Position numbers and translations under genes: made by a program | Notes under the pieces: model-generated | The model's database searches: none | Seen by the model: only the letters and a program-made list of their open reading frames with translations | What the model was told of the DNA's origin: nothing | Part shown: piece by piece, positions 22,164-58,442 of the stretch | How the letters are laid out: each line of letters starts with the position of its first letter | Position numbering within the stretch: position 1 is the stretch's first letter | Assembly (NCBI GenBank): GCA_902802375.1 | Contig: CADCLS010000007.1 | Coordinates: 1 to 62,735, forward strand | From: Oscillospiraceae bacterium | GTDB taxonomy: Bacteria > Bacillota > Clostridia > Oscillospirales > Acutalibacteraceae | Length of the DNA stretch: 62,735 bases | Direction of reading: 5' to 3'

Positions 22164-22182
22164 GGCGTTATTTGACCATTTT

Positions 22183-22958: not shown

Positions 22959-22964
22959 TTTTAT

Positions 22965-38524: not shown

Positions 38525-40732
38525 TCATAGAGACCGTCCCAAATATTGTGTAACGGTTTCGATAAGCAATTGACCTAAGGCATCATAAGTATACTCAGTA
38601 GTACCATCAACCGAATCAACAACTCGTGTAATACGCTCTTCCTCATCATATTCGTATGAGATAGTGCGACCGCCGGAAAAGACAATCTGACTTACAAGCT
38701 GCGTGGTGGGACTGGATTTGAGCTTTTCTGCGTTTCTGTGCTCTTCTGTTACATCTCCGGCATGGTAACTAAACTGGCGTGATACAAAGCCGGTGCCAAG
38801 CTGAAGCTCATCAAACACTTTTCTACCGAAAGAATCGGTTTTACTGTGAGCAGTAATTGTTTTTCCGCCTGCATTGAATTTTACAACGGTATTATCATCA
38901 TTATTCTCATAGTATATTGTTTGAACCGAGCCATCCTTAGGCGAAATTACTTTCTTCGTCATCTTGCCGTCGGTATCGTAGTAGTAATTAACCGTATTAA
39001 CAGGAGATTTCGAAATCACAATTTCTTCAGAAAGTACAATATCGCTTTCCGTAGAGCGAAGAAGTTTTTCTTCTTCGTATTCATAATTATACTCTTTCGC
39101 ACTTAAAATGTCAATTGAGCGAACAATATTACCTTTGCCGTCGTAGACATATTTGTAGTGTGCGGTAATATTATCATTTGAATCAAACCATTTTTCCGAA
39201 ATCATTTGACCGATGCCGTTGTAAGCAGCTTTCATTTTATCGCCGTTTGCGTAGGCGATCTCTTTGAGTCTGCCGTTGCCGGATTTATAGGTATAACGCA
39301 CAAGTTTTTCTGATTTACCGTTAATTCCGATAGATTCAAGATTATGGTAAGCATTGTAGTTGAGTACATACTTTAATCCGTCGCCGCGAACGATTTCGGT
39401 CATATTATCGAACGCGTCATAATCATAAGAAACATTGGCAAGCTCGGTGTTCTCGCAATCCTTACTAATAACCTTTGTTGTCTTCCCGGAAGCATCATAT
39501 TCATAGGCGGTTTTATTCCCGCAACGGTCGGTTATTTCCTCGTTGCGTGAAGTGTCCTCATCAACGGTATAATGGGTATTATTGCCTCTTGCATCGGTTT
39601 CTCTAATGAGGTCATTACCGGCATTTTCAGCACAATTGCAATCAGGAGTATAGCCAAACGAGCGATAAATAGTTCCAAATTCACCATCAGTGAAGGTGGT
39701 CTCGGTAATTGTATTACCAAAAGCATCCTTTACCTCATTAAAGGTAGGTGTAGTATTGGTGGTCTCGGTGTTATCTTCACTCTCACCTGTGCTCTCCACT
39801 ACAAAGTCAGAAGCGGAAAGACCGGTTTCAAGGTTATTGCGAACAAGCTGAATATCATCAAAGTATGCTATGCCTGTGTTGTAACCGTAATCACAATACA
39901 CACGCACATTGTTGATAGTACGGTACTTGCTCTTTGCAAACTGAATCGATGCAAACTGCCATTCTTCCGTGCAAGGTGAGAAGTCTGCAGTAAATGTTTC
40001 ATTACCATACTCTCTGTAATAGGTATCGTAATAGTACACTACTGCACGAAGTCTGAAGGTAGGCGCAACAACACCATCACGCTCGTGATTCGGCAGACCG
40101 TAGCCCTTAGCCCAACCGGAAAGAGTAAAGGTCTCACGGGTAGAACGAGTTTTTTTCACCGTCACATTCTGATATGCATAACGATCGGATTCCAGGTTAC
40201 CTGTCATCATAAGGGATCGGCTCATATTGAATCGAGTGCCGCTTGTGTAAGAAACGCCCGAGGTCATGTTCCAACCAGTGCTACGCTCAAAGTTGCCGTT
40301 TTCAAGCATATTGTAAGAGTTGGCGTAAGGATTGTTTTCAAGCTGTGCACCATCCACATCGACAGAGCCTCTGCCGCTGATCATAATCTCAACCTTAACG
40401 CTTTGAGCCGATGCAATTTCAAACGGAGCAATAAGGCGAACATATTCAGAACCTACCGCCGTAAGATGTTCGCTTTCTGCCAGAACGTTATCCGAAGTAT
40501 CGGTTACACGAATAAACACACCGGGCTTGTTGCTGCCACTGAATGCGCCGTCAATCTTCACATATACGGAGAAAGTGTACTCACCTGAAGGCAGAGTATT
40601 AGATACCTGATAAATACCATTGAGGTCATCATCCTGTCCGTAGTTACGGATCCAGCAGGTCTTACCGCCGAACTTGGAGTAAGAATCATTGCTATAGTTA
40701 CTTACAGTAAAGCCACTGCAGTTACAAGGCAT
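38525..40732 (-). pseudogene. Fragment of a large RHS/YD-repeat surface protein
   Basis: The reading frame codes 735 residues: two carbohydrate-binding-like beta-sandwich modules (about 1-310), a threonine-rich linker, then YD repeats (for example AYEYDASGKTTKV, VLNYNAYHNLESI, EYTYDALGQL). Full-length WapA/RHS proteins are several times longer, with a signal peptide at the front and a toxin tip at the end. Here there is no signal peptide, no ribosome-binding site at the first ATG, and an in-frame stop six codons before it. The C-terminus stops within a repeat and is replaced by residues encoded by an IS-like end. It is best read as an internal fragment. Confidence 0.75.
38530..38554. mobile_element. 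Possible vestigial end of an IS256-family insertion sequence
   Basis: GAGACCGTCCCAAATATTG followed by TGTAAC resembles terminal repeats of IS256-family elements (G-rich start, then TGTGTAA). It forms the last codons of the RHS fragment. No matching second end or transposase was found, so only one end would remain. The match is from memory of family consensus. Confidence 0.4.
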
Positions 40733-40827: not shown

Positions 40828-41412
40828 TTATCCGTAGGTTTTTATGATTTCTTCCGCAATTTGTTTGCGTGAAACACAACGGTCCATCGCTTGTTTTTCT
40901 ATGTATCTGTGAGCATCCTGCTCGGTCATTTTAAGTTCGCTTATCAATAACCATTTTGCGCGGTTGACAATACGGATTTCATTCATTTTTTCCTCTATCG
41001 AGAGTGTCTTCTTTTCAGTTTTTCTTATTCGTTCACGTGCACTTATAAGCCAGCCGGAAGCAATGTCCATTACCGCTCTTGATATCGGCTTTTGCAGTAA
41101 AAACACGCCGTGCTCGGCGAGCTTATCGTATGCGTCTTCGTATTGTTCGGCTCTTGCCAAAAACAAGACGACTGTGTTATAAGAACTGACCGTATCAATA
41201 GCAAAACGAAGACCGTAATCATCGGGAAGCGGAGAATTTATTATTACAATATCAAAATCCCGTTCGCTAATCGCCCGTTTTGCCGCACTTATGTTATTTA
41301 CCGTGTTGACAGGAGAAAATAAAGGAACGGAAAATATTTCGGGTATCGCACTATTGAATTTTTCTGCGGCTGATACGATAAGCACGCTATACACCTGTTC
41401 TTTCAGGCTCAA
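40828..41412 (-). CDS. ANTAR-domain antitermination regulator with degenerate receiver
   Basis: A 194-residue protein. Residues 1-120 form a receiver-like domain. The phospho-acceptor aspartate position carries asparagine (VIINSPLPDDYG), so phosphorylation is unlikely, as in AmiR-type proteins; the conserved lysine is kept (LLQKPIS). A coiled coil (about 125-145) leads into a C-terminal ANTAR domain (NRAKWLLISELKMTEQDAHRYIEKQAM). ANTAR proteins bind paired hexaloop RNA hairpins and prevent terminator formation. Exactly such loops lie in both leaders at 47664-47982. It starts at a TTG with GGGGG upstream and is the last gene of the leftward operon after glnA. Confidence 0.92.
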   Translation of the reverse strand: MSLKEQVYSVLIVSAAEKFNSAIPEIFSVPLFSPVNTVNNISAAKRAISERDFDIVIINSPLPDDYGLRFAIDTVSSYNTVVLFLARAEQYEDAYDKLAEHGVFLLQKPISRAVMDIASGWLISARERIRKTEKKTLSIEEKMNEIRIVNRAKWLLISELKMTEQDAHRYIEKQAMDRCVSRKQIAEEIIKTYG

Positions 41413-41447: not shown

Positions 41448-42659
41448 TCATTTGGCACAATAAATATCGAGTATTGCTTTTGGAATATGTTTTTTAATAA
41501 AATCGTCATTCTGCGCGGTACGCTTTGCCTCATCAATGCTTTCGGGAAGCTTATGCAAATACCGCATATTTTTTTCATCCGCCTTATAAACATTGATGTC
41601 TATCGGCTCGGGCATCTCCTTGTTGTGCTTCATACCGTAAAGTCCCGACCAAATGAGCAGTGCAAATGCAATATACGGATTAGCCGCCGGATCGGGCGAA
41701 CGCAGTTCTATGCGGCGGTATTCATCCTGTGCCGCCGGAATGCGTATAAGCCCGGAGCGGTTTTCGTTATCCCACGAAACATATTTGGGCGCTTTCTGTT
41801 TTCCTAAGCGATTATAGGAAGCCTCACACGGGTTGAAAAACAGCGTCATCGGTATTGCTTTTTCGAGTATTCCCGAAAGCAACAAGTTGTAATTGACGGT
41901 TGACTCATTTTTCTTTACAGAGCAGTTGATATGAAAGCCGTTGCCTGCGGTATTTTGGAGTGGCTTTGGAGAAAAGTCAGCGAAGAGACCGTTTCTGCGA
42001 GCAACAGTTTTTACAACCGTTTGAAATGTCATAACATTGTCTGCGGCAGTAAGTGCATCAGAAAATCGGAAATCGATTTCATTTTGTCCGGGGCCTTCCT
42101 CGTGGTGTGAACTTTCAGGGGATATCCCCATTTGTTCAAGAGTGAGGCAAATCTCACGGCGCACATTCTCGCCCTTGTCCTCGGGAGCTATATCCATATA
42201 ACCGGCATGGTCATATGGAATTTTTGTCGGATTGTTTTTTTCGTCAAGCTCCATAAGGTAAAACTCTTGCTCCGCGCCGAAATAGAAGGTGTATCCGGCG
42301 TCTTTCGCGTCGGCTATCGCCTTTTTAAGAAGTCCACGGCTGTCGCACTCAAAAGGGGTGCCGTCAGGATAGGTTATACTGCAAAACATTCGCACAACTT
42401 TGCCGTGCTCAGGACGCCACGGAAGCCATGTGAGCGTTTCCGGCTCAGGATGCAGGAATAGATCCGAGTGTGTTTCATCACCGAAGCCTGTTATCGCGGA
42501 CGCGTCAAAAGCGATGCCGTACTTAAAAGCGCGCGGCAATTCATCCGGCATAATTGAAACATTTTTCTGTTTGCCAAACACATCGCAGAAGGCAAGACGG
42601 ATGAATTTTACATCCTCTTCCGCGACATACTGCATAACCTCTTCTTTTGAGTAATTCAT
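41448..42659 (-). CDS. glnA: Glutamine synthetase, short type I-like form
   Basis: A 403-residue GS. N-terminal beta-grasp signature VKFIRLAFCDVFGKQKNV; catalytic-domain signatures FGAEQEFYLMELD, GPGQNEIDFRF (ammonia and glutamate site), GNGFHINCSV (ATP site) and RIELRSPDPAANPYIAFA. It makes glutamine from glutamate, ammonia and ATP. It is about 40 residues shorter than the classical enzyme, and the usual adenylylation-loop region is not evident, so control is probably not by adenylylation. It sits between the glutamate-synthase genes and the ANTAR gene, and a second, unrelated GS (type III) is encoded divergently. Confidence 0.93.
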   Translation of the reverse strand: MNYSKEEVMQYVAEEDVKFIRLAFCDVFGKQKNVSIMPDELPRAFKYGIAFDASAITGFGDETHSDLFLHPEPETLTWLPWRPEHGKVVRMFCSITYPDGTPFECDSRGLLKKAIADAKDAGYTFYFGAEQEFYLMELDEKNNPTKIPYDHAGYMDIAPEDKGENVRREICLTLEQMGISPESSHHEEGPGQNEIDFRFSDALTAADNVMTFQTVVKTVARRNGLFADFSPKPLQNTAGNGFHINCSVKKNESTVNYNLLLSGILEKAIPMTLFFNPCEASYNRLGKQKAPKYVSWDNENRSGLIRIPAAQDEYRRIELRSPDPAANPYIAFALLIWSGLYGMKHNKEMPEPIDINVYKADEKNMRYLHKLPESIDEAKRTAQNDDFIKKHIPKAILDIYCAK

Positions 42660-42669
42660 ATTGTCCTCC

Positions 42670-43389
42670 TCAGTTGGCTACATATAACTGCTTATATGGA
42701 TTTTTACTGTTTGGTGTAACAATTGTAAAAGGTGAATTCATAATACCGTCGACATTATCGCCGAATAAACGGCAGTATTTTGCAACATATTTTTTGATTT
42801 CTTTAAGTTCCTTTTGTGTAGCGGGTTTTGCGGATACCTGATTCGGAAAGATAATACCGGCACAATCCGACCGTAGTATCATTTTTCCTCCGTGCATACC
42901 GGTGCACGGAAAATTGCCGACTATTTTTCCGTTTGTGTTTTCGAGACCCAATACAACGATTACGCCGCCTGCCTGGTATTCGCCTAAAAAACTGCCTGCT
43001 CTGCCGCCTATAACCATAACCGGTATTTTTTCTTTATACGCTTTCATATGTATTCCGGCACGGTATCCGGCGTTGCCTTTTACATAAATACTTCCGCCGC
43101 GCATAGCGTAACCCGCGGCGTCGCCTGTATTTCCGTGAATAACGATTTCGCCGGCGTTCATCGTGTCGCCTACGGCGTCCTGCGCGTTGCCGCGCACAAT
43201 GATTTTGCCGCCGTTCAAGTAAGCTCCGAGCGCGTTCCCCGGAACACCGTTTACGATAACGGTTTTATCCGACATACCCGCCGCAATAAACCGCTGACCG
43301 ATAACGTCCGTCAGCGTAACGCTTTTTCCGGCTTTTCTGATAGCCTCGTTTATAGCCGGAAATTCCATCGGTTTTGTATTTACCGTCAT
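42670..43389 (-). CDS. Glutamate synthase GXGXG-domain subunit (GltB C-terminal domain)
   Basis: A right-handed beta-helix protein with repeated G-x-x-G-x-x-x-G turns (for example NALGAYLNGGKIIVRGNAQDA and GDAAGYAMRGGSIYVKGN), matching the last domain of GltB. In standard glutamate synthase this domain is structural. Here it is a separate subunit, as in archaeal-type split enzymes. The open frame begins at a GTG at 43401, but GGAGGT lies ten bases before the ATG at 43389, giving 239 residues. It follows the FAD oxidoreductase with a single-base gap. Confidence 0.9.
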   Translation of the reverse strand: MTVNTKPMEFPAINEAIRKAGKSVTLTDVIGQRFIAAGMSDKTVIVNGVPGNALGAYLNGGKIIVRGNAQDAVGDTMNAGEIVIHGNTGDAAGYAMRGGSIYVKGNAGYRAGIHMKAYKEKIPVMVIGGRAGSFLGEYQAGGVIVVLGLENTNGKIVGNFPCTGMHGGKMILRSDCAGIIFPNQVSAKPATQKELKEIKKYVAKYCRLFGDNVDGIMNSPFTIVTPNSKNPYKQLYVAN

Positions 43390-43390
43390 A

Positions 43391-44623
43391 TTATACCACA
43401 CCTCCGAACATTTTTCTACGAATTTCTTTTTTGTATATCATATTTGTCGCGGCTTTTTTTGTGAGTTCAAAATCAATTGTATCAAGCGGCGTTTTTTCGC
43501 GGATAAGAGAGGTGTAAATTCCGGCGCGGTCTGTGGCGCCTAAGAGAATAAAACCTATTAAACGGTTATCTTTTATAAAAAACCGTTTAAGTGAAGCGTC
43601 ATCCTTTTCTTCTGTCATTTCGCCGTCATAATTTCCGGCGGTCATAATGTGATAACCGAAAAAGCCGATTGAGTTCATCAGTATTGCGTTATTAAACGTC
43701 TTTTCGCCGCCCGCCATGTTGACACCGGCTGTATATCCGCCTATATAGGCGTTTGGCAGAATTGCCAGCACGCGGTTTGCACCGAATGACGAGTCATGCC
43801 CCTCGGCACAGTCGCCCGCCGAAAAAACGCCTTTTATATCGGTTTCCATTTTTTCGTTTACGATAATACCGCGGTTTACACTGCCGCCGGCGTTTTTAAT
43901 AAGCGAGGTGTTTGCGCGAACGCCTACCGCCAAAACCAAAATATCAAATTCCACCGTTTTGCCGCTTTTCATATACGCGGTGTTTTTATCAAACCGTACG
44001 GCGGTATCAGCTAACATAAACTTGACGCCGCTTTTCTCCAAATGCTTTTGAACAATACCGGCACAGTCGGAATCAAGAATACTTGAAAGTACACGGTCCG
44101 CCAAATCGCAAACCGTTATACTTTTAACTCTGTCGCGGATTCCCTCGGCACATTTAAGACCTATAAGCCCGGCGCCTATTATTAAAACGCGCGATTCTTT
44201 TGAAATGGCGGACTCAAGCGCAAGCATATCGTCAAGAGTCATGAAAGAAAACTTGTTATCCACTGTATCCAGCCCTTCAAACGGCGGTATAAACGGATCG
44301 GAGCCGGCGGCAACACAAAGTGCGTCATAGGTTATACTTCTGCCGTTGTCCAGCAGTACGGTTTGATATTTTTGATTTATTGAATCAGCGCGTACACCGT
44401 AAATCACTTTGCATTTGTTATCCTTATAAAACGAATTGTCTCTGTATTTCATCTTTTCAAGGTCGGTTTTACCCTCAAGATAATATGAAATTAAAGGGCG
44501 GCTGTAAACCGGATGCTTTTCTTTTGATATAATGGTTATCTCGCCGGATTTATCAATAGAGCGTATCCCCTCGATACATCCGACGGCGGCAGTGCCGTTG
44601 CCGACAATTACATACTGTTTCAC
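43391..44623 (-). CDS. NAD(P)/FAD-dependent oxidoreductase of the split glutamate synthase
   Basis: A 410-residue pyridine-nucleotide oxidoreductase of the nitrite-reductase/NADH-oxidase class: FAD motif YVIVGNGTAAVGCIEG at residue 3, NAD motif VLIIGAGLIGLKCAEG near 142, and GVFSAGDCAEG near 268. It lacks the redox CxxC of disulphide reductases. It probably feeds electrons from NAD(P)H via the neighbouring ferredoxin to the FMN core subunit, in place of GltD. It overlaps the ferredoxin gene by four bases. The partner assignment is from gene order. Confidence 0.85.
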   Translation of the reverse strand: MKQYVIVGNGTAAVGCIEGIRSIDKSGEITIISKEKHPVYSRPLISYYLEGKTDLEKMKYRDNSFYKDNKCKVIYGVRADSINQKYQTVLLDNGRSITYDALCVAAGSDPFIPPFEGLDTVDNKFSFMTLDDMLALESAISKESRVLIIGAGLIGLKCAEGIRDRVKSITVCDLADRVLSSILDSDCAGIVQKHLEKSGVKFMLADTAVRFDKNTAYMKSGKTVEFDILVLAVGVRANTSLIKNAGGSVNRGIIVNEKMETDIKGVFSAGDCAEGHDSSFGANRVLAILPNAYIGGYTAGVNMAGGEKTFNNAILMNSIGFFGYHIMTAGNYDGEMTEEKDDASLKRFFIKDNRLIGFILLGATDRAGIYTSLIREKTPLDTIDFELTKKAATNMIYKKEIRRKMFGGVV

Positions 44624-45060
44624 TCTTCTTCGTCCCTTTCCTCGTATACTATTGCCTTGTTAGGGCAACCCTCGACGCACGCGGGTTGCCCGCAGTTGTT
44701 TTCAAGGCATAGTTCGCATTTCTGCATGGTTCCGTTTTCACCGGGTGCAAGTGCACCGTAAGGACACACAAGAACACAGGTAAGGCACCCTACGCATTTA
44801 TTGCGGTCTATTTTTACAACACCGTCCACCTTGGAGATAGCGCCCGCGATACAGCTTTTAACACATATCGGGTCGGTGCAGTGTCGGCAGGACACGGCAA
44901 AGCATATTTTATCTCCGTCTTCCACATGAATGCGCGGAAAAATTTTTTTATCTTTGAGGGCATACGCCATATCGCTTAAACCTGAATTGGCAAAAGCACA
45001 GTTATATTCACATAAGTGGCAACCGAGACACCATTCTTCATTTACATATACACGCTTCAT
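44620..45060 (-). CDS. Four-cluster ferredoxin-type electron-transfer subunit (HycB-like)
   Basis: A 146-residue protein with cysteine motifs for up to four [4Fe-4S] clusters: CLGCHLCEYNC, CRHCTDPICVKSC, CVGCLTCVLVC and CELCLENNC...CVEGC. Such subunits wire flavoproteins to redox partners. Lying between the FAD oxidoreductase and the FMN core of glutamate synthase, with overlaps of a few bases on one side, it probably carries the electrons between them. Confidence 0.88.
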   Translation of the reverse strand: MKRVYVNEEWCLGCHLCEYNCAFANSGLSDMAYALKDKKIFPRIHVEDGDKICFAVSCRHCTDPICVKSCIAGAISKVDGVVKIDRNKCVGCLTCVLVCPYGALAPGENGTMQKCELCLENNCGQPACVEGCPNKAIVYEERDEEE

Positions 45061-45063
45061 TTT

Positions 45064-46569
45064 TCATTCCCCCGCGTGAGAAATACCGAGTATTTCGAGT
45101 TCTTTTGAGTTTAGTCCGACGCCGCGAAGCATCAACCTGTTGCCGCGAAGGGCTTCAATGGAATTTATACCCATTCCGCCCATGATTTCTTTAATTTCAT
45201 GTTGCCATGCTGTCATCAGGTTGCAAAGGCGCTCAGCACCCATATCGGGATTAAGCCGCTTTACAAGGTCGGGGCGCTGTGTGGCAATACCCCAGTTGCA
45301 TTTGCCTGACTGACAGGTTCTGCAAAGGTGACAGCCGAGAGCGAGCAAGGCCGCAGTGGCGATATAGCAGGCATCAGCACCAAGGGCTACCGCCTTTACA
45401 ACATCCGCGGAACTGCGTATAGAGCCGCCAACGACTAATGACACATTGTTTCTTATTCCTTCTTCGCGAAGTCTGCTGTCAACGGCGGCGAGGGCGAGTT
45501 CAATGGGAATTCCAACATTATCGCGTATTCTCGTAGGCGCGGCGCCCGTGCCGCCACGAAAGCCGTCTATCGCAATAATATCCGCGCCGCTTCGGGCAAT
45601 TCCGCTGGCTATGGCGGCAATGTTATGCACCGCGGCAACTTTCACTATTACCGGCTTTTTATACTGCGTTGCCTCTTTCAGTGAGAAAACGAGCTGCCGT
45701 AAATCTTCAATCGAGTAAATATCGTGGTGAGGCGCGGGGGAGATTGCGTCCGACCCTTCGGGTATCATACGAGTTTTTGATACATCGCCAACGATTTTAG
45801 CCCCCGGCAAATGACCGCCGATACCCGGCTTCGCACCTTGCCCCATTTTAATTTCAATAGCGGCTCCCGCGCTCAAATAATCCTCGTGAACGCCGAAACG
45901 GCCCGAAGCCACCTGAACGATTGTATTCGTACCGTATCGGTAAAAATCCTCATGCAAACCACCCTCGCCGGTGTTATAAAGAATGCCGAGTTCGGTTGCC
46001 GCGAGCGCAAGTGAGGCGTGTGCGTTGTAACTTATCGAGCCGTAACTCATAGCGGAGAACATCAGCGGCATTGAAAGTTCAATTTGAGGCGAGAGCGTGC
46101 AGTCGATTTTTCCGCTTTTATCACGGGTAATAGTGTTGGGCTTTTTACCCAAAAACACCTTGGTTTCCATTGGCTCTCTAAGCGGGTCAATGGGTGGATT
46201 TGTTACTTGCGAGGCGTTAAGCAAAATCTTATCCCAGTAAACAGGTAGCGGTTTGGGATTTCCCATTGAAGATAACAACACGCCGCCGCTTGAAGCCTGC
46301 TTGTATATTTCTTTTATTGTATCGTTTTGCCAATTTGCGTTTTCGCGAAGCAGGCAGTCGCTCTTAACTATTTTAAGTGCTCTTGTCGGGCATAAAGATA
46401 CGCACCGCTGACAATTAACGCATTTGCTTTCGTCACTTACCATAACCCCGCGTTCGGTGCTGAATGTATGGACCTCGTTTGCACACTGTCGCTCGCACAC
46501 TCTGCAGGAAATACATCTGTCCGTATTCCTTACAACTTCAAATTCGGGATATATAAAATTCACAGCCAT
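45064..46569 (-). CDS. gltB: Glutamate synthase FMN-binding core subunit with N-terminal ferredoxin domain
   Basis: A 501-residue protein. The first 75 residues hold two [4Fe-4S] motifs (CISCRVCERQC and CVNCQRCVSLC). The rest is the glutamate-synthase TIM barrel with FMN site (SYGSISYNAHASLALAA, GQGAKPGIGGHLPG, GFRGGTGAAP) and a [3Fe-4S]-type motif (CHLCRTCQSGKCNWG). It reduces 2-iminoglutarate, made from 2-oxoglutarate and ammonia, to glutamate. The amidotransferase domain is a separate protein encoded just upstream and overlapping by one base. Confidence 0.93.
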   Translation of the reverse strand: MAVNFIYPEFEVVRNTDRCISCRVCERQCANEVHTFSTERGVMVSDESKCVNCQRCVSLCPTRALKIVKSDCLLRENANWQNDTIKEIYKQASSGGVLLSSMGNPKPLPVYWDKILLNASQVTNPPIDPLREPMETKVFLGKKPNTITRDKSGKIDCTLSPQIELSMPLMFSAMSYGSISYNAHASLALAATELGILYNTGEGGLHEDFYRYGTNTIVQVASGRFGVHEDYLSAGAAIEIKMGQGAKPGIGGHLPGAKIVGDVSKTRMIPEGSDAISPAPHHDIYSIEDLRQLVFSLKEATQYKKPVIVKVAAVHNIAAIASGIARSGADIIAIDGFRGGTGAAPTRIRDNVGIPIELALAAVDSRLREEGIRNNVSLVVGGSIRSSADVVKAVALGADACYIATAALLALGCHLCRTCQSGKCNWGIATQRPDLVKRLNPDMGAERLCNLMTAWQHEIKEIMGGMGINSIEALRGNRLMLRGVGLNSKELEILGISHAGE

Positions 46570-47663
46570 CAGAATTTTCCCTCTTTCACTTTAACTATTA
46601 CCGGTTCGCCGCCGGCGGGCGACCAGATATTTTCGGCTTCCGGCTCCATTACCCTTATCGCCGCTTCTTCGCTTGCTATAAATACCTTGTCATCTTTTTC
46701 TCCCACTACCATAGAACGAAGCTTCAGCCGGTCGTTGAGCGCCATAAGTCCGCCCTCGAATCCCAAAACGATTGAAAACGGTCCGGTTACAAGCAGATTC
46801 GGAAATACAGTTCGCAAGTATTTATGCTTTTCTTCGTCGTATTTATCTGTTTTGCTCTCAATGGTACTCCAGAACGGCGCCGCAATCACGCTTGCCGCCT
46901 CGCCGAGCGTCAGCCCTTGCCGGCGCACAAGATAATCGAGTATGTATGTTATGACTTCCGTATCGGTCTGCAAATTGCATTTGTAGCCGAACATTTCAAT
47001 AAAACGGCGGTTGGCGTCGTAAGATGATATTTCTCCGTTATGCACTACCGAATAATCAAGCAGCGTAAACGGATGCGCGCCGCCCCACCAGCCGGGGGTA
47101 TTTGTGGGGTATCTGCCGTGAGAAGTCCAACTGTAACCCTCGTATTCGTCAAGCTTATAAAATTTGCCTACGTCCTCGGGAAATCCCACCGCCTTGAATG
47201 TTCCCATATTTTTACCGCTTGAAAATACATAAGCGCCTCTCATTTCGGTATTGATTTTCACAACCGTCCTCGCGACAAACTCTTTTTCATCAAGCTGCAA
47301 ATCGGCAAGCACCGATTTTAAGGGCGTTACAAAATACCGCCATATAATCGGCTCGTCTGTAATTTCGGGGATTTTCCGCGTGGGGATTATTTCGCCCTTT
47401 ACAATTTCAAAATGTTCTTTTAGAAAAGCTTCGCACTTTTTTCTTGTGTCCCTGCAGTCAAAAAACATATGAAAAGCGTAAAAATCCTTATAGTCCGGAT
47501 AAATGCCGTATGCCGCAAAACCGCCGCCGAGTCCGTTTGAACGGTCGTGCATGGGCTCCATTGCCTTTATGATCTTTTCCCCGGTCATCATTTTGCCGGC
47601 TTTGGATATGACCGCCGCAATGGCGCAGCCGGACGGTATCCTGATTTCTCCCTCTCTTTTCAT
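46569..47663 (-). CDS. Glutamate synthase class II glutamine amidotransferase subunit
   Basis: An Ntn-type glutaminase domain as a separate protein of about 364 residues. The presumed nucleophile is the cysteine in RIPSGCAIAAV near residue 13. In most class II enzymes Cys is residue 1 after Met removal, so a short propeptide of about 12 residues would have to be cut off. SHGRYPTNTPGWWGGAHPF and VVHNGEISSYDANRRF are the glutamine-site motifs. A GTG at 47672 is possible, but the ATG at 47663 is better placed after AGAAGG. It is first in the leftward operon. Confidence 0.9.
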   Translation of the reverse strand: MKREGEIRIPSGCAIAAVISKAGKMMTGEKIIKAMEPMHDRSNGLGGGFAAYGIYPDYKDFYAFHMFFDCRDTRKKCEAFLKEHFEIVKGEIIPTRKIPEITDEPIIWRYFVTPLKSVLADLQLDEKEFVARTVVKINTEMRGAYVFSSGKNMGTFKAVGFPEDVGKFYKLDEYEGYSWTSHGRYPTNTPGWWGGAHPFTLLDYSVVHNGEISSYDANRRFIEMFGYKCNLQTDTEVITYILDYLVRRQGLTLGEAASVIAAPFWSTIESKTDKYDEEKHKYLRTVFPNLLVTGPFSIVLGFEGGLMALNDRLKLRSMVVGEKDDKVFIASEEAAIRVMEPEAENIWSPAGGEPVIVKVKEGKF

Positions 47664-47694
47664 CCTTTTCACCTTCTAAAATAAATAAAAAAAG

Positions 47695-47738
47695 AGCGCC
47701 CGTTTTTACGCGGAATAATCCGCATAAAAATGAACGCC
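47695..47738 (-). terminator. Leader terminator of the glutamate synthase operon
   Basis: Minus-strand stem: GGCGTTC pairs with GGGCGCT, continuing through TTTTTAT/GTAAAAA and GCGGA/TCCGC around a TTAT loop, then CTTTTTTTATTTATTTT. Its 5' arm is the loop and 3' arm of the hexaloop hairpin at 47729-47748, so the two cannot coexist. Confidence 0.8.
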
Positions 47739-47748
47739 TTTGCTCATT
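47729..47748 (-). ncRNA. ANTAR-type hexaloop hairpin at the 5' end of the glutamate synthase leader
   Basis: Minus-strand hairpin AATGAGC-[AAAGGC]-GTTCATT: seven pairs (one G-U) around a hexaloop with A at position 1 and G at position 4, the ANTAR-binding signature. It begins at about the predicted transcription start. Confidence 0.75.
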
Positions 47749-47754
47749 GCGCTT

Positions 47755-47783
47755 ATTATACGCGCGAAAAATCGGTTTGTCAA
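47755..47783 (-). promoter_or_regulatory. Promoter of the leftward glutamate synthase operon
   Basis: Minus-strand TTGACA (47778-47783), 17-base spacer, TATAAT (47755-47760): perfect consensus. The predicted start is at about 47748, leaving an 85-base leader before the coding region. Confidence 0.85.
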
Positions 47784-47811
47784 GAAAAAATAAAAAATTT
47801 TCAAAAAACAC

Positions 47812-47840
47812 TTGACAAATGAAAACAGCGGTTGTATAAT
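47812..47840 (+). promoter_or_regulatory. Promoter of the rightward type III glutamine synthetase operon
   Basis: TTGACA (47812-47817), 17-base spacer, TATAAT (47835-47840): perfect consensus, back to back with the leftward promoter. The predicted start is at about 47847. Confidence 0.87.
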
Positions 47841-47850
47841 ACGCCACATA

Positions 47851-47868
47851 AAAGGCAACGGCGTCTTT
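47851..47868 (+). ncRNA. ANTAR hexaloop hairpin P1 of the glutamine synthetase leader
   Basis: AAAGGC-[AACGGC]-GTCTTT: six pairs around a hexaloop with A1 and G4. It starts about four bases after the predicted transcription start. The loop and 3' arm can instead pair with 47878-47893 in a 15-bp stem (47857-47893), a competing structure like the terminator that competes with P2. Confidence 0.78.
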
Positions 47869-47912
47869 AAGTTTTTTACTTAACGGTGCCGTTATCTCAT
47901 TTTAATAAGGAA

Positions 47913-47930
47913 AAAGGCAAAGGCGTCTTT
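47913..47930 (+). ncRNA. ANTAR hexaloop hairpin P2 of the glutamine synthetase leader
   Basis: AAAGGC-[AAAGGC]-GTCTTT, the same stem as P1 and a loop differing at one base. It is 62 bases downstream of P1 and shares 12 bases with the terminator at 47919. Confidence 0.8.
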
Positions 47931-47962
47931 CGTAATTTTACGAAGGGCGCTTTTTCTTTTTT
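47919..47962 (+). terminator. Leader terminator of the glutamine synthetase operon
   Basis: A 16-bp stem (47919-47934 with 47939-47954, ATTT loop) followed by a T run broken by a single C. The 5' arm contains the P2 loop and 3' arm, so formation of P2 prevents termination. Confidence 0.88.
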
Positions 47963-47982
47963 CGCAAAAGGAGTTTTGGATT

Positions 47983-50079
47983 ATGAAAACGGTAAAAGAT
48001 TATTTCGGAAGTTTGGTTTTTGATGACAGAGTGATGAAAGCAACTCTTTCGGCTAAGGTTTATGCCTCGCTTAAAAAGACCATTGACGAAGGCGCGGCGC
48101 TTGATATAGGCGTTGCCAACGCCGTTGCCGCCGCTATGAAAGACTGGGCGATAGAAAAGGGCGCCACACATTTTACTCACTGGTTCCAGCCGCTCACCGG
48201 CATCACCGCCGAAAAGCACGACAGTTTTATTACGCCCTCTCCCGACGGCGGCGTGATTATGGAGTTTTCGGGTAAGGAGCTGATAAAGGGCGAGCCGGAC
48301 GCGTCAAGCTTTCCGTCCGGCGGACTTCGCGCCACCTTTGAGGCGCGCGGTTATACGGCGTGGGACCCGACCTCTTACGCTTTTATAAAGGGAAAGACGC
48401 TTTGTATTCCTACGGCGTTTTGCTCATACGGCGGTCACGCACTCGATAAAAAAACGCCGCTTTTGCGCTCAATGGAGGCGTTGAGTCATCAGGCGCTCCG
48501 TGTTTTACGCCTTTTCGGAAACACGAGTGTAAAAAGAATTGTATCTTCAGTAGGCCCAGAGCAGGAATACTTCCTTATAACCAAAGAAATGTATGACAGG
48601 CGCCCTGATTTGCGCTTTACCGGCAGAACGCTTTTCGGCTCAAAACCGCCAAAGGGTCAGGAAATGGATGACCACTATTTCGGCGTTATAAAGCCTCGCG
48701 TTGCCGCCTATATGGAAGAACTCAATGAGGAACTTTGGAAGCTCGGCATTCTTGCTAAAACCGAGCATAACGAAGTAGCGCCGGCACAGCATGAACTCGC
48801 ACCTATTTATACTACTACCAATGTAGCCACAGACCATAACCAGCTCACAATGGAAATTATGCAGAAAATTGCCGCGAAGCACGGACTTGTCTGCCTGCTG
48901 CACGAAAAACCGTTTGCAGGAGTCAACGGCTCGGGCAAGCATAACAACTGGTCAATTTCTACTGATGAGGGACAAAATCTTTTATCACCCGGCGATACAC
49001 CCTACCAAAACGCACAGTTTTTGCTGTTTCTGTGCGCGGTCATTAAAGCGGTTGACGATTATCAGGATCTTCTGCGTATCTCGGTAGCCACTGCCGGAAA
49101 CGACCACAGACTCGGTGCAAACGAGGCGCCGCCGGCAGTGATTTCCATATTCTTAGGCGACGAATTAAATGCGGTTTTAGAGGCGATTGAAACCGATACT
49201 CCGTATAAGGGCACGGAAAAAACGCAGATGAAATTAGGCGTTGATGTGCTGCCTAAATTTAACCGCGATACCACAGACCGCAACCGTACCTCGCCCTTTG
49301 CCTTTACCGGCAACAAGTTTGAATTTCGTATGCTCGGCTCTTCAAACTCTATCGCCTGCGCGAACATTATGCTCAATAGCGCGGTTGCAGAAAGCCTTAA
49401 AATCTATGCGGACAGATTAGAGGGTGCAGAAGATTTTGAAACCGCACTTCACGATATGATAAAGAAGACCATTAAAGACCACAAACGCATTATTTTTAAC
49501 GGCAACGGTTACGATGACGCGTGGATAAAAGAGGCGACCGAAAAGCGCGGGCTCCTTAACTACCGCACCACCGCCGACTGCATGCCGCACTTGCTCGATA
49601 AAAAGAATGTTGATATGCTAACATCTCACAAGGTTTTCTCGGTAGCAGAACTTAATTCCCGTTGTGAAATTATGCTCGAAAACTACTGCAAGTCGGTAAC
49701 TATCGAGGCAAATACAATGGTCGATATGGCGAAAACCGAGATAGCGCCGGCGGTAGAGCGTTTTACGGCAGATATTGCCAAAAATGCCGCCGCAAAGCGC
49801 GCGGTATCGCCGAACATTCCCTGTGAATACGAAACAGGTCTTGTTTCAAAACTTTCAGACCTTACGGATAAAATAGAAAAATACGCTGACGGATTAAAGG
49901 ATGCAGTTGTCACTCTCGGCAACGCACAGGATATTATTGAAGAATCCGAAATGATTAGGGATAACATTTTGCCTGAAATGTGTGAATTGCGTGTCGCCTG
50001 CGACGAGGCGGAAACGCTTACCGCAAAGTCTTACTGGCCATATCCCTCTTATGCGGATATACTTTTCAGCGTAAAATAA
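47983..50079 (+). CDS. glnN: Glutamine synthetase type III
   Basis: A 698-residue GSIII of normal length. It has the type III N-terminal region ([16 protein letters not shown]), catalytic signatures [39 protein letters not shown] (ATP loop) and [14 protein letters not shown], and a long C-terminal region. It makes glutamine from ammonia and glutamate and forms a dodecamer unrelated in order to type I. AAAAGGAG precedes the ATG. It heads the rightward operon behind the ANTAR-controlled leader and is followed by the ammonium transporter. Confidence 0.96.
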
Positions 50080-50093
50080 TAGAGGTGTTTTAA

Positions 50094-51848
50094 ATGATTA
50101 TGGAAGAACTTATTAAATTAATTAAAGAAACCGCTACGAGCGAAGTTTTCGGCGTGTGGTTTCTCATCGGCGCAGCGCTTGTTTTCTTTATGCAAGCCGG
50201 GTTTGCTATGGTGGAAACCGGCTTTACCAGAGCCAAAAACGCCGGAAATATAATAATGAAAAATCTTATGGATTTCTGCATTGGTACTGTTATGTTCGTT
50301 CTGCTGGGTTTTTCGCTGATGATGGCAGAGGACTATCTTCTCGGTTTTATCGGCGTTCCGAATTTCAAGATATTAACCGATTTCGGACAATTCTTAAAAA
50401 GCGGAAACGCACCGTCATTCGTATTTAACCTTGTTTTCTGTGCAACGGCGGCGACTATAGTTTCCGGCGCTATGGCGGAAAGGACAAAATTTATTTCCTA
50501 CTGCATTTATTCGGGTGTAATATCACTTTTCGTCTATCCGATTGAAGCAGGTTGGGTATGGAACAGTAAAGGGTGGCTTGTAAACTTAGGCTTCCACGAT
50601 TTTGCCGGAAGCGCCGCGATACACTCGGTAGGCGGAATAACGGCGCTTATCGGCGCCATTATGGTAGGACCCCGCCTTGGCAAATACATAAAAGACGAAA
50701 GTAAAAAGGTAAAGAAAGTAAATGCCATTCCCGGTCACTCAATAACACTCGGCGCGCTGGGTTGCTTTATTCTTTGGTTCGGTTGGTACGGCTTTAACGG
50801 CGCCGCCGCTTGGGATAATAATTCCCTTGCCTCAATTTTCGTTACCACCACGATAGCCCCTGCGGTCGCCACTTGTGTAACGATGATTTTCACTTGGATT
50901 AAAAACGGCAAGCCGGATGTTTCAATGTGTATAAACGCTTCTCTTGCCGGTCTTGTGGGTATAACCGCCGGTTGTGATGCGCTGGACGCCGTAGGATCAA
51001 CCGTTGTTGGTATTGTTTCGGGTTTCCTTGTAGTATTTGTTGTTGAATTCCTTGATATAAAACTTCATATAGATGACCCTGTAGGCGCCGTGGGTGTTCA
51101 TCTTGCAAATGGCGTTTGGGGAACTGTGGCAGTAGGCTTGCTTGCTAACCCAGCCGCTCCCGCCGGACTTAAAGGACTTTTCTACACCGGCAGTTTCCGC
51201 CTTTTAGGCGTTCAGCTCTTAGGAATTACGGCAATTCTTTTGTGGACCGCCGCTATGATGACCGCAACATTCCTTATTATTAAAAAGACCATAGGACTTC
51301 GGGTTACTGTCGAAGAAGAAATTAAAGGCCTCGACAAAACCGAGCACGGACTTCCGAGCGCATACGCCGATTTCGTTCCGGCAGTCGAAAGCATTGATTA
51401 CGGTTATGAAAACGCCGTGGCGGTAACCGGTGAAACGCCCGTATCGGAGGCAATACCGGTTAAAAAAGTGCCTGCATTTGATGAGAGCGTGCCGAAGCTT
51501 ACAAAGATAGAAATTATCTGCAAAGAACCGCGCTTCGAGGCTCTTAAAAACGCGATGATGGATATAGGAATAACCGGTATGACGGTATCGCACGTATTAG
51601 GCTGCGGAGCGCAAAAAGGTCAGCCGGAATATTACCGCGGCGTCGAGGTGGAAGCAAATCTCTTGCCTAAAATTCAGGTAGATATCGTTGTAAGCAAGGT
51701 GCCGGTCAGAAGCGTTATAGAAACTGCAAAGAAGGTGCTTTACACCGGGCATATCGGTGACGGAAAGATATTTGTTTACGATGTTGAAAACGCCGTAAAG
51801 GTGCGTACGGGCGAAGAAGGTTACGACGCTTTACAAGACGTGGAGTAA
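50094..51848 (+). CDS. Ammonium transporter fused to a PII signalling domain (Amt-PII)
   Basis: A 584-residue protein. Residues about 15-405 are an Amt channel with eleven predicted helices (FFMQAGFAMVETGFTRAKN at helix 1, AGWVWNSKGWL, the twin-histidine helices FAGSAAIHSVGG and AVGVHLANGVWGT). A linker of about 60 residues leads to a PII/GlnK-like domain from about 463 (LTKIEIICKEPRFEALKNAM, then DGKIFVYDVENAVKVRTGEEG). The usual uridylylation tyrosine of the PII T-loop is not evident. The fusion puts sensor and channel in one chain. GAGGTG precedes the ATG; it is 14 bases after glnN. Confidence 0.93.
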   Translation: MIMEELIKLIKETATSEVFGVWFLIGAALVFFMQAGFAMVETGFTRAKNAGNIIMKNLMDFCIGTVMFVLLGFSLMMAEDYLLGFIGVPNFKILTDFGQFLKSGNAPSFVFNLVFCATAATIVSGAMAERTKFISYCIYSGVISLFVYPIEAGWVWNSKGWLVNLGFHDFAGSAAIHSVGGITALIGAIMVGPRLGKYIKDESKKVKKVNAIPGHSITLGALGCFILWFGWYGFNGAAAWDNNSLASIFVTTTIAPAVATCVTMIFTWIKNGKPDVSMCINASLAGLVGITAGCDALDAVGSTVVGIVSGFLVVFVVEFLDIKLHIDDPVGAVGVHLANGVWGTVAVGLLANPAAPAGLKGLFYTGSFRLLGVQLLGITAILLWTAAMMTATFLIIKKTIGLRVTVEEEIKGLDKTEHGLPSAYADFVPAVESIDYGYENAVAVTGETPVSEAIPVKKVPAFDESVPKLTKIEIICKEPRFEALKNAMMDIGITGMTVSHVLGCGAQKGQPEYYRGVEVEANLLPKIQVDIVVSKVPVRSVIETAKKVLYTGHIGDGKIFVYDVENAVKVRTGEEGYDALQDVE

Positions 51849-51859
51849 GGAGTTCTCTT

Positions 51860-53443
51860 ATGTGTTCAGTTATAGGTTATTGCGGCAGGATTTCAGATGA
51901 AGCCGCATTCAGAAAAGGGTTCGCCGAGACTAAGTCTCGCGGACCCGACGATACAAGAATTATAGATACCGGAAGCGGCGTATTAGGCTTTCACAGACTT
52001 TCTATTATGGGACTTAACGAATCAGGTATGCAACCGTTTGAAAAAGACGGTTGCTTTGCCGTGTGTAACGGTGAGCTTTACGGCTTTCAAAATCAAAAAG
52101 AATTGCTTAAAGCCAAAGGCTATGAGTTTAAAAGCGAAAGTGATTGCGAGATAATTCTGCCACTTTATTTTGAATACGGTACGGATATGTTTTCTATGTT
52201 AGACGCCGAATTTGCCTGCATAATATATGACGGCGGGAGTAACGGGTGGATAGCCGCGCGCGACCCGATAGGCATTCGTCCGCTTTATTACGGATATGAC
52301 TGCAAGGGAATCATCGTTTTTGCAAGCGAAGCAAAAAATCTTGTGGGGCTTTGTGAAAAGATTATGCCGTTTCCGCCGGGACATTATTATAAAGACGGCA
52401 AGTTTACTTGCTATAACGATATATCGAGAGCGGAGGGTGTATGCGGTGATGACCTTGAAACCGCCTGCAAAAACATCAGAGAAAAGTTAGTATCAGGTGT
52501 AAAAAAGCGGCTTGTAGCGGATGCGAAGGTAGGCTTCCTGCTTTCGGGCGGTCTTGATTCCTCACTTGTATGCGCTATTGCGGCAAGGGAAAGCAATAAG
52601 CCGATAAAGACCTTTGCAATAGGTATGAGCGAGGACGCTATCGACCTTAAATATGCCCGTCAGGTAGCTGATTTCATCGGTGCAGACCATACCGAGGTAT
52701 ATATGACGCCGGATGAGGTAATATCATCGCTTGAAGATGTAATACACCTGCTCGGCACTTATGATATCACCACTATCAGAGCTAGTATGGGTATGTATCT
52801 TGTGTGCCGTGCAATTCACGAAAAAACCGATATCCGCGTACTTTTGACAGGTGAAATATCCGATGAACTGTTCGGCTATAAATACACCGATTTTGCACCG
52901 AACGCGCAAGAATTCCAAAGGGAGTCGGAAAAACGGGTTCGTGAGCTTCATATGTACGATGTTCTGCGCGCAGACCGTTGCATTTCGGTAAACTCTCTTG
53001 AAGCGCGTGTGCCGTTCGGCGACCTTGATTTCGCAAAGTATGTTATCAATCTTGACCCGGAAATAAAGATGAATAAATACGGTAAAGGCAAATATCTTTT
53101 GCGCCACGCGTTTGAGGGCTTAGGCTACTTGCCGGACGGCATTTTGTGGCGCGAAAAGGCGGCGTTTTCGGACGCGGTAGGGCACTCAATGGTAGATTAT
53201 CTGAAAGAATACGCCGAAAGCGTTTATACCGACGAACAATTCAAAGCGCAAAGAATAAAATATGAGCATGCGACGCCCTTTACAAAGGAATCATTATTAT
53301 ACAGAGAGATTTTTGAAAAGTATTATCCCGGTCAGTCGGAAATGGTAGTAGATTTCTGGATGCCGAATAAATCTTGGGACGGATGCAATGTAAACGACCC
53401 GTCGGCGCGCGTGCTTTCAAACTACGGCGAAAGTGGAAAATAA
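51860..53443 (+). CDS. asnB: Asparagine synthase (glutamine-hydrolysing)
   Basis: A 527-residue two-domain enzyme. Cys2 is the glutaminase nucleophile (MCSVIGYCGR), with CNGELYGF as the glutamine-site motif. The synthetase domain has the ATP pyrophosphatase motif LSGGLDSSL near residue 230 and LTGEISDELFGYKY. It forms asparagine from aspartate with glutamine nitrogen. AGGAG precedes the ATG. It is placed between an ammonium transporter and glmS in an operon full of glutamine-using enzymes. Confidence 0.95.
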   Translation: MCSVIGYCGRISDEAAFRKGFAETKSRGPDDTRIIDTGSGVLGFHRLSIMGLNESGMQPFEKDGCFAVCNGELYGFQNQKELLKAKGYEFKSESDCEIILPLYFEYGTDMFSMLDAEFACIIYDGGSNGWIAARDPIGIRPLYYGYDCKGIIVFASEAKNLVGLCEKIMPFPPGHYYKDGKFTCYNDISRAEGVCGDDLETACKNIREKLVSGVKKRLVADAKVGFLLSGGLDSSLVCAIAARESNKPIKTFAIGMSEDAIDLKYARQVADFIGADHTEVYMTPDEVISSLEDVIHLLGTYDITTIRASMGMYLVCRAIHEKTDIRVLLTGEISDELFGYKYTDFAPNAQEFQRESEKRVRELHMYDVLRADRCISVNSLEARVPFGDLDFAKYVINLDPEIKMNKYGKGKYLLRHAFEGLGYLPDGILWREKAAFSDAVGHSMVDYLKEYAESVYTDEQFKAQRIKYEHATPFTKESLLYREIFEKYYPGQSEMVVDFWMPNKSWDGCNVNDPSARVLSNYGESGK

Positions 53444-53460
53444 TTTTAGGAGGCTTATTT

Positions 53461-55284
53461 ATGTGTGGAATAGTAGGTTTTACAGGGGCGCAGGAGGCGG
53501 CGCCGATTTTACTCGAAGGTCTTAAAAAGCTTGAATACAGAGGTTACGATTCGGCAGGTATCGCCGTTATGGACGGAAACTCAATTTCAGTAAACAAGGT
53601 GACCGGCAGAATTGCAAATCTTTGTGAGAAAACAGATGACGGCAAGGCGGTGAAAGGCGGCGCCGGTATAGGTCATACCCGGTGGGCAACTCACGGTGCG
53701 CCGACAAGTGAAAACGCGCATCCGCATTTAAGCAATGACGGTAAATTTGCGATAGTTCATAACGGTATAATTGAAAACTATTTGCAACTCAGGGAAAAGC
53801 TTATCGGCGAAGGTTATCATTTTGAGAGCGAAACAGATACGGAGGTTATAGTTCACTTAATTGAAAAATACTATAAAGGAAATGTGCGTGAGGCGCTTAT
53901 TAAAACCACAAATAAACTTCGCGGCTCTTATGCTTTGGGTGTTATTTGCGCTGAAAACCCCGGAACGCTTTACGCCGCAAGAGAGGCAAGTCCGCTAATA
54001 CTGGGACTTGGTACAGACGAAAATTATTTTGCTTCCGATGTTACGGCGCTTGTAGCCCATACAAGAAATGTAATATATCTTGAAGACGGAGAATTTGCAG
54101 AGCTATCTGCCGACAGTATAAAGGTGTTTGATTGTTTGGGCACTGAAATAAACAAAAAGGTTGTCCGTGTTATGTGGGATGTTCAGGCGGCTGAGAAGGG
54201 CGGCTATGAGCATTTTATGATGAAAGAAATAAAGGAACAGCCGGCGGCGGTCAAAGCGACCATAGCGCCGCGGATAAAGGAAGGAAAAGTAGTGTTTGAC
54301 GAGCTCAATATAACCGCAGATAAACTTAAAAGCATAAATAAGATACTGATTACCGCCTGCGGCTCGGCGTATTATGCCGGTTGCGCCGGAAAATATGCGC
54401 TTGAAAAACTGTGTAATATTCCGGTAAGTCTTGAGCTTGCAAGCGAGCTTCGTTACAGTGAGCCGATAATAGATGAACACACACTGCTTATAGTAATTTC
54501 ACAGTCGGGTGAAACGGCGGACACTATCGCCGCTATGAAAGAGTGCAAGCAAAAAGGCGCTACGGTAATCGCCATAGTAAATGTAGTTGGCAGTACGGTT
54601 GCAAAGCTCGCCGATTACACGGTATATACATGGGCAGGCCCCGAAATCGCGGTTGCCACAACAAAGGGATATACCACGCAGGTTACGGTTCTTTATCTGC
54701 TTTCAATTTATTTTGCCGACAAGTTAAATCTTATAAAAGAAGATTACGGCAAGTATGTAAAATCGGTACAGTCATTACCGCGATTTATTCAACAGGCGAT
54801 AGATATGAACCCGCAAATTGAAAAGCTCGCAAAGAAATACCATTCAAGCAAGGCGCTGTTCTTTATCGGCAGGAACACCGATTATGCCGTATCGCTTGAA
54901 GGCGCGCTTAAAATGAAGGAAATTTCATATCTGCACTCCGAAGCCTACGCCGCCGGAGAACTCAAACACGGCACAATAGCGCTTATAGAGGAACATCAGC
55001 CGGTAATAGCACTTTGCTGTAATGAAAACATAATGGAAAAAACGCTCAGCAATATCGTTGAGGTAAAAGCGCGCGGCGCGGAAGTTTTAGCGCTTACTTT
55101 TAAGAATAACACAAAGATTTTATCGGTTGCGGATGACCTTATGTTTATCCCGGAAATTGACCCGATATTTTCGGGTGTGGTAGAAATTGTGCCGCTTCAA
55201 CTGCTGGCATACTTTGTAGCAAAGGAAAACGGCTGCGATATTGATAAACCCAAAAATCTCGCAAAATCTGTAACGGTGGAATGA
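53461..55284 (+). CDS. glmS: Glutamine-fructose-6-phosphate aminotransferase (isomerising)
   Basis: A 608-residue enzyme of normal length. Cys2 ([11 protein letters not shown]) is the glutaminase nucleophile, followed by [11 protein letters not shown] and HNGIIENY. Two sugar-isomerase domains follow ([21 protein letters not shown]), ending in the conserved AKSVTVE. It makes glucosamine-6-phosphate for cell wall synthesis. An open frame begins at 53374, but TAGGAGG lies just before the ATG at 53461. No glmS ribozyme is seen: only 17 bases separate it from asnB. Confidence 0.96.
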
Positions 55285-55285
55285 T

Positions 55286-56818: not shown

Positions 56819-58438
<1,620 letters not shown>

Positions 58439-58442
58439 TTTT

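Follow-up and report, generated by a model that had tools for sequence, protein, structure and literature searches.

Two divergent nitrogen operons and their leaders

The window, by which we mean the whole 62,735-nucleotide stretch of DNA analysed here, comes from an Oscillospiraceae genome of 1.68 Mb in 24 contigs (99.86% complete, 3.29% contamination). It carries two divergent gene runs, the leftward one encoding a split glutamate synthase, and each run is preceded by a leader with hexaloop hairpins. In the hairpin sequences below, the loop is set in square brackets.

40828-41412, (-): ANTAR protein, pseudo-receiver plus ANTAR domain (PF03861), last gene of the leftward operon
41448-42659, (-): type I glutamine synthetase (glnA)
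42670-47672, (-): glutamate synthase set (GATase class II, FMN/4Fe-4S synthase domain, ferredoxin, FAD/NAD oxidoreductase, GXGXG domain)
47687-47693, (-): U run 3' of the leftward terminator (from sequence)
47691-47741, (-): competing terminator stem of the leftward leader, taking in the hexaloop and 3' arm (predicted structure, covariation)
47748-47729, (-): leftward hexaloop hairpin, AATGAGC[AAAGGC]GTTCATT, in the glutamate synthase leader; starts about at the predicted +1
47755-47783, (-): leftward promoter, TTGACA-17-TATAAT, 12/12 consensus match; its near-fixed distance to the hairpin is kept in homologs
47812-47840, (+): rightward promoter, TTGACA-17-TATAAT, 12/12 consensus match
47851-47868, (+): first rightward hairpin, AAAGGC[AACGGC]GTCTTT (from sequence)
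47857-47893, (+): competing stem of the first rightward module (predicted structure); U tract weak in this species
47913-47930, (+): second rightward hairpin, AAAGGC[AAAGGC]GTCTTT (from sequence)
47919-47964, (+): competing terminator of the second rightward module, with a T-rich tail (predicted structure)
47983-60418, (+): GSIII, AmtB-PII fusion, asnB, glmS, guaA, pyrG, dapF and LL-diaminopimelate aminotransferase, a tightly packed gene run

A sequence-only reading of this DNA had pointed to two perfect back-to-back promoters and to an ANTAR gene at the end of the leftward operon. Both hold: the two strands each carry the full consensus, and the PF03861 match of the gene lies above the cut-off. 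That reading placed the hairpins between the promoters, which was mistaken. By coordinates, the promoter pair is flanked by the leftward hairpin on one side and by the two rightward hairpins on the other, and the hairpins therefore lie outside the pair. The leftward transcript is predicted to start near 47748, about 7 nt past the -10 box. From its spacing, the whole rightward gene run probably forms one transcript. Its ammonium channel AmtB, fused to a PII signalling domain (50094-51848, (+)), might serve the system as a nitrogen sensor. A 735-aa protein (38525-40732, (-)) with repeats that, by eye, resemble YD/RHS is encoded immediately downstream of the ANTAR gene.

An Rfam scan of the window at gathering score returned only an FMN riboswitch (22052-22167, 115 bits) and a SAM riboswitch (22864-22959, 79.8 bits), both on the (+) strand with about 700 nt between them, and no family at the nitrogen leaders. 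Sub-threshold matches at the leaders, the best being freshwater-2 at 36.6 bits against a cut-off of 49.9, were dismissed.

A second version of the locus, diverged from that of the window, lies on contig C1 of the same genome (L003, C1:14000-33000) and includes ANTAR, glnA, glutamate synthase, GSIII, amtB and pyrG. At the protein level, its GATase, GSIII, ANTAR and glnA share 86-90% identity with their counterparts in the window. The cores and loops of its three hairpins are letter-identical to the window, and its inner terminator stems have diverged yet still pair. The copy could be due either to an old duplication or to a contig of a related strain. One other genome (G050) also has two GATase copies. 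Loose matches to the hairpin element elsewhere in the source genome were set aside as chance; the one at 60898 of the window falls inside an ORF.

Each hexaloop hairpin competes with a longer stem

The three loops, AAAGGC, AACGGC and AAAGGC, were found where the sequence-only reading had located them, each with A at position 1 and G at position 4 (A1/G4). In all three hairpins the loop and 3' arm double as the 5' arm of a longer competing stem, and minimum free energy (MFE) folding favors the competing stems, as that reading had supposed. The leftward leader reaches -27.4 kcal/mol, compared to -18.8 kcal/mol with the hairpin forced, and the second rightward module -20.9 compared to -7.0 kcal/mol; the competing stem of the first rightward module is likewise present in the MFE structure. 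Two stems had been described as followed by T runs, and these proved to be the leftward and the second rightward ones. The first rightward stem is poor in this respect, with merely ATCTCATTTTAAT behind it.

We aligned 71 leftward leaders (alignment A1), leaving out 4 of 75 (L036, L037, L038 and L090) for long inserts or cut ends. Across the 22 pairs of the leftward terminator, 90.8% of cells are paired, compared to 35-57% in slid controls. Cells changed on both sides number 199 and the covariation score is 0.451 (0.212 when shuffled), values matched by none of 500 shuffles in either case; pairs with changes on both sides number 14, a value that 35 of the 500 shuffles reached. Loop letters take part in the terminator pairing: a T at loop position 6 faces A in four of seven leaders and G in three (pair 15-64), and an A at position 5 faces U in three of five (pair 14-65).

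The leftward antiterminator hairpin is paired in 90.7% of cells in the same alignment, compared to 30-46% in slid controls, and its four innermost pairs hardly vary. Because the core is nearly invariant, covariation alone cannot prove this helix, and its support comes from invariance and from stem swaps. The 5' arm lies outside the terminator; three of its four core bases (G, A, C) are invariant in 71/71 leaders, whereas the fourth reads G in 67 leaders and A in the other 4. In the rightward leaders of L032, L037 and L038 the stem is swapped and the loop is held on CAGC[AAAGGY]GCTG.

When homologous leaders were folded (loci L012-L027 were skipped, being close to later loci), loop G4 paired into the downstream stem in the MFE structure of 86 of 87 leftward modules with a scored U tract, out of 88 modules. 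The corresponding figures are 42 of 47, out of 48, for first rightward modules and 30 of 30, out of 40, for second rightward modules. The competing stem has a median advantage of 13-14 kcal/mol over the hairpin. Thus, as in the ANTAR RNA motif of Ramesh 2012, the last hairpin is predicted to overlap an intrinsic terminator.

The hexaloop is conserved in homologous leaders

Homologous loci were collected by a GTDB scan with the first leftward protein, from which we took the best 80 of 335 confirmed loci, and 30 further loci came from 99 relatives. Sorted by the letters at loop positions 1 and 4, hexaloop hairpins of the A/G class number 124 in leftward leaders, compared to at most 46 for any other class, and 116 in rightward leaders, compared to at most 28; both counts include near-identical loci. 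The A1/G4 enrichment in the leaders of homologous operons is not chance.

We also searched for the stem alone, with any loop, in leaders of at least 200 nt from the window, the C1 copy and the best 80 of 335 GTDB loci, near-duplicates included; one leader (L061) was too short to count. In this set the leftward hairpin is present in 79/81 leaders, and its loops have A1, A2 and G4 in 79/79 each, whereas position 3 takes all four letters. The stem-only search found no hairpin in the L085 leftward leader. In L066 the strict stem is missing and a variant stem carries the loop AAGGGC; the ANTAR match of this locus is weak and partial, at 33% identity. Rightward modules from the same best 80 of 335 loci, window and C1 copy have A1 in 86/87, A2 in 87/87 and G4 in 87/87. 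All 48 divergent rightward leaders of this set have at least one module, two in 39 and one in 9.

Both leaders of the window carry the A1/G4 hexaloop on a stem of at least 3 bp, as in the motif of Ramesh 2012. The element is also present in a cultured relative, Massiliimalia timonensis (L112). The sequence-only reading had named loss of A1 or G4 in leaders that keep the ANTAR gene as evidence against itself. Among the best 80 of 335 GTDB loci, the window and the C1 copy, both bases are kept in 57/57 leftward leaders with a strict stem and an ANTAR match. Loop letters are mostly AANGRY. In the leftward hairpin, the pair beside the loop-closing pair is a G-U wobble in 67/71 leaders; this wobble and the constant A at loop position 2 are both beyond the published A1/G4 rule. 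A match in the L102 rightward row fell outside the leader and was not used as an example.

The hairpins co-occur with ANTAR genes

Among the 99 relatives, the strict leftward hairpin occurs in 28/41 genomes with an ANTAR gene and in 4/58 without one. The rightward core occurs in 22/41 and 3/58, respectively, and both elements together in 20/41 and 0/58. Reversed-pattern controls matched 6 of these genomes for the leftward and 5 for the rightward element. In a class sample of 343 genomes, which shares a few genomes with the 99 relatives, the strict leftward hairpin was present in 60/185 ANTAR-positive and 8/158 ANTAR-negative genomes (Fisher p 4e-11, kinship ignored), and the reversed leftward pattern in 8/343. 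The strict 16-mer was absent from 125 of the 185 ANTAR-positive genomes in this sample. A less strict pattern with the -10 box in it gave matches in at least 43/99 relatives and at least 123/343 class genomes, and we did not use it for counts because its reversed control also matched often.

The gene neighborhood points the same way. In the best 80 of 335 GTDB loci, the window and the C1 copy, the ANTAR gene lies within 120 nt behind glnA in 56/57 loci and at 130 nt in the remaining one (L076). This clustering of an ANTAR gene with glnA and an upstream glutamate synthase is the arrangement of a NitR-type system. Eight GTDB loci were chosen for having no ANTAR gene in the locus DNA, with the flank at least partly covered; seven of their genomes encode one elsewhere and G101 does not.

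The element was found without a detected ANTAR gene in the eight class genomes and in G001, G054, G065 and G101 (the last through L090). Some of the eight class carriers are at chance level, and others look like real leaders: in G285, G317 and G348 the element precedes proteins resembling glutamate synthase GATase, PurC and AsnB. Strict matches in two ANTAR-negative genomes, G011 and G019, have no scored promoter upstream and are probably chance. The ANTAR-negative carriers may reflect assembly gaps or another binder, and the real-looking ones count against our model unless their assemblies have missed the gene.

Such leaders are what one would expect if the hexaloop were read by something other than an ANTAR protein, for example a different RNA-binding protein or an RNA-bound ligand, and the additional invariant bases (A2 and the 5' arm) that exceed the A1/G4 rule fit this idea as well. 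We nevertheless judge another reader to be quite improbable, given the strong co-occurrence with ANTAR genes, the ANTAR gene within the same operon behind glnA, the agreement of A1/G4 with the published motif and the absence of any Rfam family at gathering score. It is also conceivable that the 5' hairpin merely protects the mRNA end or fixes the level of termination, with no regulator involved. The predicted transcript does begin with this hairpin, which could there block 5'-end decay. However, a generic cap needs no invariant A1, A2 and G4 and would not track ANTAR genes, and we give this explanation hardly any weight.

The ANTAR protein has a pseudo-receiver

The 194-residue protein belongs to the ANTAR family (PF03861, 56.5 bits against a cut-off of 27.3), and its receiver-domain match is weak (25.9 against 30.2). 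Asn59 stands at the position aligned with Asp54 of EutV, the residue on which EutV is phosphorylated, in 54/54 distinct orthologs, so that the phosphoacceptor Asp is absent from the whole set, a point that the sequence-only reading had not noticed. Ser14 is likewise invariant in 54/54, at what we take to be the position of the first acidic pocket residue of receivers. The ortholog set was drawn from 59 matches, of which 4 were skipped as partial or weak and one removed as a duplicate.

Among solved sequences, the protein matched 1s8n, which is Rv1626 (PMC8934654), AmiR, and EutV (6wsh/6ww6). Similar to EutV/EutW of Enterococcus faecalis, the system here combines an A1/G4 hexaloop overlapping an intrinsic terminator with an ANTAR domain that has Met at the Met172 plug (Met176 here). 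Tyr164, which stacks on G4 in EutV, is replaced by His168; Met176 and His168 are each conserved in at least 95% of orthologs, and the EutV numbering used for them assumes that the deposited chain is offset by two residues. AmiR of Pseudomonas aeruginosa shares His at the same loop-contact position and is described as a pseudo-receiver ANTAR protein that is not controlled by phosphorylation (PMC8934654). Our ANTAR protein is likewise a pseudo-receiver. Since such a receiver has no phosphoacceptor Asp, a protein partner or ligand, and not a kinase, probably activates the protein. At the amidase operon AmiR is under the control of AmiC, whereas the leftward genes here gave no match to an AmiC-like family. 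Glutamine synthetase, or the PII domain fused to AmtB, may relay nitrogen status.

One hexaloop per terminator

The ANTAR RNA motif was defined as two hexaloop hairpins, with linkers of 5-12 nt in eut (Ramesh 2012, PMC3369931). Setting a eut linker to 3 or 14 nt drastically reduced induction (PMC3369931), and adding 20 nt abolished antitermination (Walshe 2022, PMC8934654). The structural work on EutV describes one hexaloop as the minimal ANTAR binding site, with two still required for antitermination, and calls for bioinformatic work on single-hexaloop sites (PMC8934654). An actinobacterial survey accepts linkers of 2-25 nt (PMC8164766).

The leaders of Clostridia are outside the linker ranges given in the available text of these three papers. 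The leftward hairpin core begins 9-11 nt past the -10 box in 83 of the 88 leaders for which a promoter was scored (7 of 95 leaders had none), and a transcript starting about 7 nt past the -10 box leaves no space for an upstream hairpin. Hexaloops with a stem of at least 3 bp and a loop starting 6-13 nt upstream of the core were counted in the 88 folded leftward leaders, and none of the 36 was A1/G4. Downstream in the same leaders, A1/G4 accounts for 16 of 390 hexaloops, and just one of the 16 loop classes is rarer. In L250 and L251, what look like upstream hexaloops share letters with a TATACT/TATACA box resembling a -10, with no promoter scored there, and we rejected them as a second hairpin. 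Two rightward modules are present in 42 of 52 distinct leaders with the core, and the spacing between cores is 43-340 nt; three further rightward leaders have the swapped stem only. Two hairpins joined by a short linker were thus seen at neither leader, the leftward one being single and the rightward ones either alone or 43-340 nt apart.

It might still be argued that these are ordinary dual-hexaloop targets whose second hexaloop is a weak hairpin or a distant partner module, in keeping with the studied targets, which are dual (PMC3369931, PMC8934654), and with the two hexaloops of most rightward leaders. This seems unlikely to us because the leftward leader has no room upstream, nearby hexaloops are seldom A1/G4, and the rightward spacing exceeds the linkers tolerated in eut. 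The same EutV work, in which a close second hexaloop was needed (PMC3369931, PMC8934654), counts against our model of one hexaloop per terminator, as does the first rightward stem of this species, which is without a good U tract.

The new part, which the sequence-only reading had missed, is the single hexaloop per terminator in place of a close pair. It mostly lies only a few bases from where transcription is predicted to start, and its priority is subject to the scope of the literature covered. In the literature on ANTAR hexaloops, nitrogen and Clostridium, supplements and most subscription papers excepted, we recognized no report of a single-hexaloop leader beyond PMC8934654. The available text of a premature-terminator survey (PMC2965389) does not contain ANTAR, gltB, glnA or the two enzyme names.

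A model for control of both operons

We consider it likely that both operons are under transcription attenuation read by the ANTAR protein of the leftward operon, in the manner of NitR, with one hexaloop for each terminator. This proposal builds on sequence, predicted structure, conservation, covariation, co-occurrence and gene neighborhood. RNA polymerase would start within a few bases of a 5-7 bp hairpin with a six-base loop, if the transcript start is where we predict it. The active ANTAR protein, presumably under nitrogen limitation, would bind and hold the single loop, which by itself would be sufficient; the loop and 3' arm could then not pair downstream, the terminator would be absent and the operon would be transcribed. 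When the protein is inactive, the much more stable terminator would form and transcription would stop about 60 nt from the start. The direction of control and the nitrogen signal in this scheme are those that we think most plausible. The leftward leader has one module. In the rightward leader there are usually two, one after the other, and most of these have a competing stem of their own; such a tandem arrangement should tighten control.

ANTAR-dependent antitermination at both leaders was the central idea of the sequence-only reading, and the comparative evidence argues for it: A1/G4 is invariant, the terminators covary, ANTAR genes co-occur with the hairpins, and the element precedes many nitrogen or glutamine-using genes. 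Conserved across many Clostridia, the leaders have the look of natural attenuators with a single hexaloop, which opens the sufficiency of one loop to tests with short RNAs and one protein. The missing phosphoacceptor poses a defined question, namely how nitrogen status reaches the ANTAR protein.

The closest known system is NitR of C. saccharobutylicum and C. acetobutylicum, for which the primary paper is reportedly that of Stutz 2007. We compared it through citing papers. There, NitR is an ANTAR antiterminator of GS/GOGAT, as proposed here, and is said to induce these genes under nitrogen limitation in solventogenic clostridia (PMC6316151); nitR is named in C. acetobutylicum, and an ANTAR gene lies in the nitrogen cluster of C. 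thermocellum (PMC4676874). Compared to NitR as these papers present it, the element here is also carried by the divergent GSIII operon and by many glutamine-using genes. A further likeness is with the predicted nitrogen regulons of Desulfotomaculum, which have ANTAR RNAs before glutamate synthase, ammonium transporter and related genes (Ramesh 2012, PMC3369931). That set was found with a dual-hairpin covariance model, as the available text describes it, and the single-hexaloop leaders do not fit such a definition. Since dual-hairpin models are not expected to find leaders of this kind, nitrogen regulons may have escaped notice in many Clostridia.

The element precedes a wider set of nitrogen genes

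In other genomes the element precedes classical gltB, glnA followed by ANTAR, amtB, gdhA, carA, pyrG, purA, purB, purC, asnB, dapF and a gene for a GlnP-like permease. The purB, carA and permease assignments fall below at least one curated cut-off, and purB and carA are cut by the end of the sequence fetched; the sole purB example is in an ANTAR-negative genome (G065). Wherever a promoter was scored, the element core lies 6-20 nt past the -10 box, with the exception of L249 at 29 nt. Among the class-level leaders fetched, 27/30 put the loop into a terminator, compared to 33/150 shuffled tails; the leaders that did not are L229, L230 (contig end) and L248. An earlier, cruder test of these loci gave 19/28 (of 30) because it cut at early T runs, and it has been superseded.

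The sequence-only reading had further suggested a single regulator for both ammonia assimilation and glutamine spending. The gene content supports this view, since asnB, pyrG and dapF, which belong to the rightward run here, carry their own copy of the element elsewhere.

Glutamine synthetase controls GlnR/TnrA in Bacillus. It is tempting to speculate that Clostridia have a class-wide, single-hexaloop nitrogen-economy regulon whose ANTAR protein is set directly by the adjacent glutamine synthetase, an RNA-level counterpart, if true, of the Bacillus control. Such a regulon would join the uptake and assimilation of ammonia to purine, pyrimidine, asparagine and diaminopimelate genes that use glutamine. 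We offer this broader reading tentatively and hold it to be rather doubtful in its full extent.

In L128, L129 and L130 the same attenuator precedes a large classical GltB, unlike the split enzyme of the window. With the attenuator before both types of enzyme, the leader has been either kept or regained across the change of enzyme.
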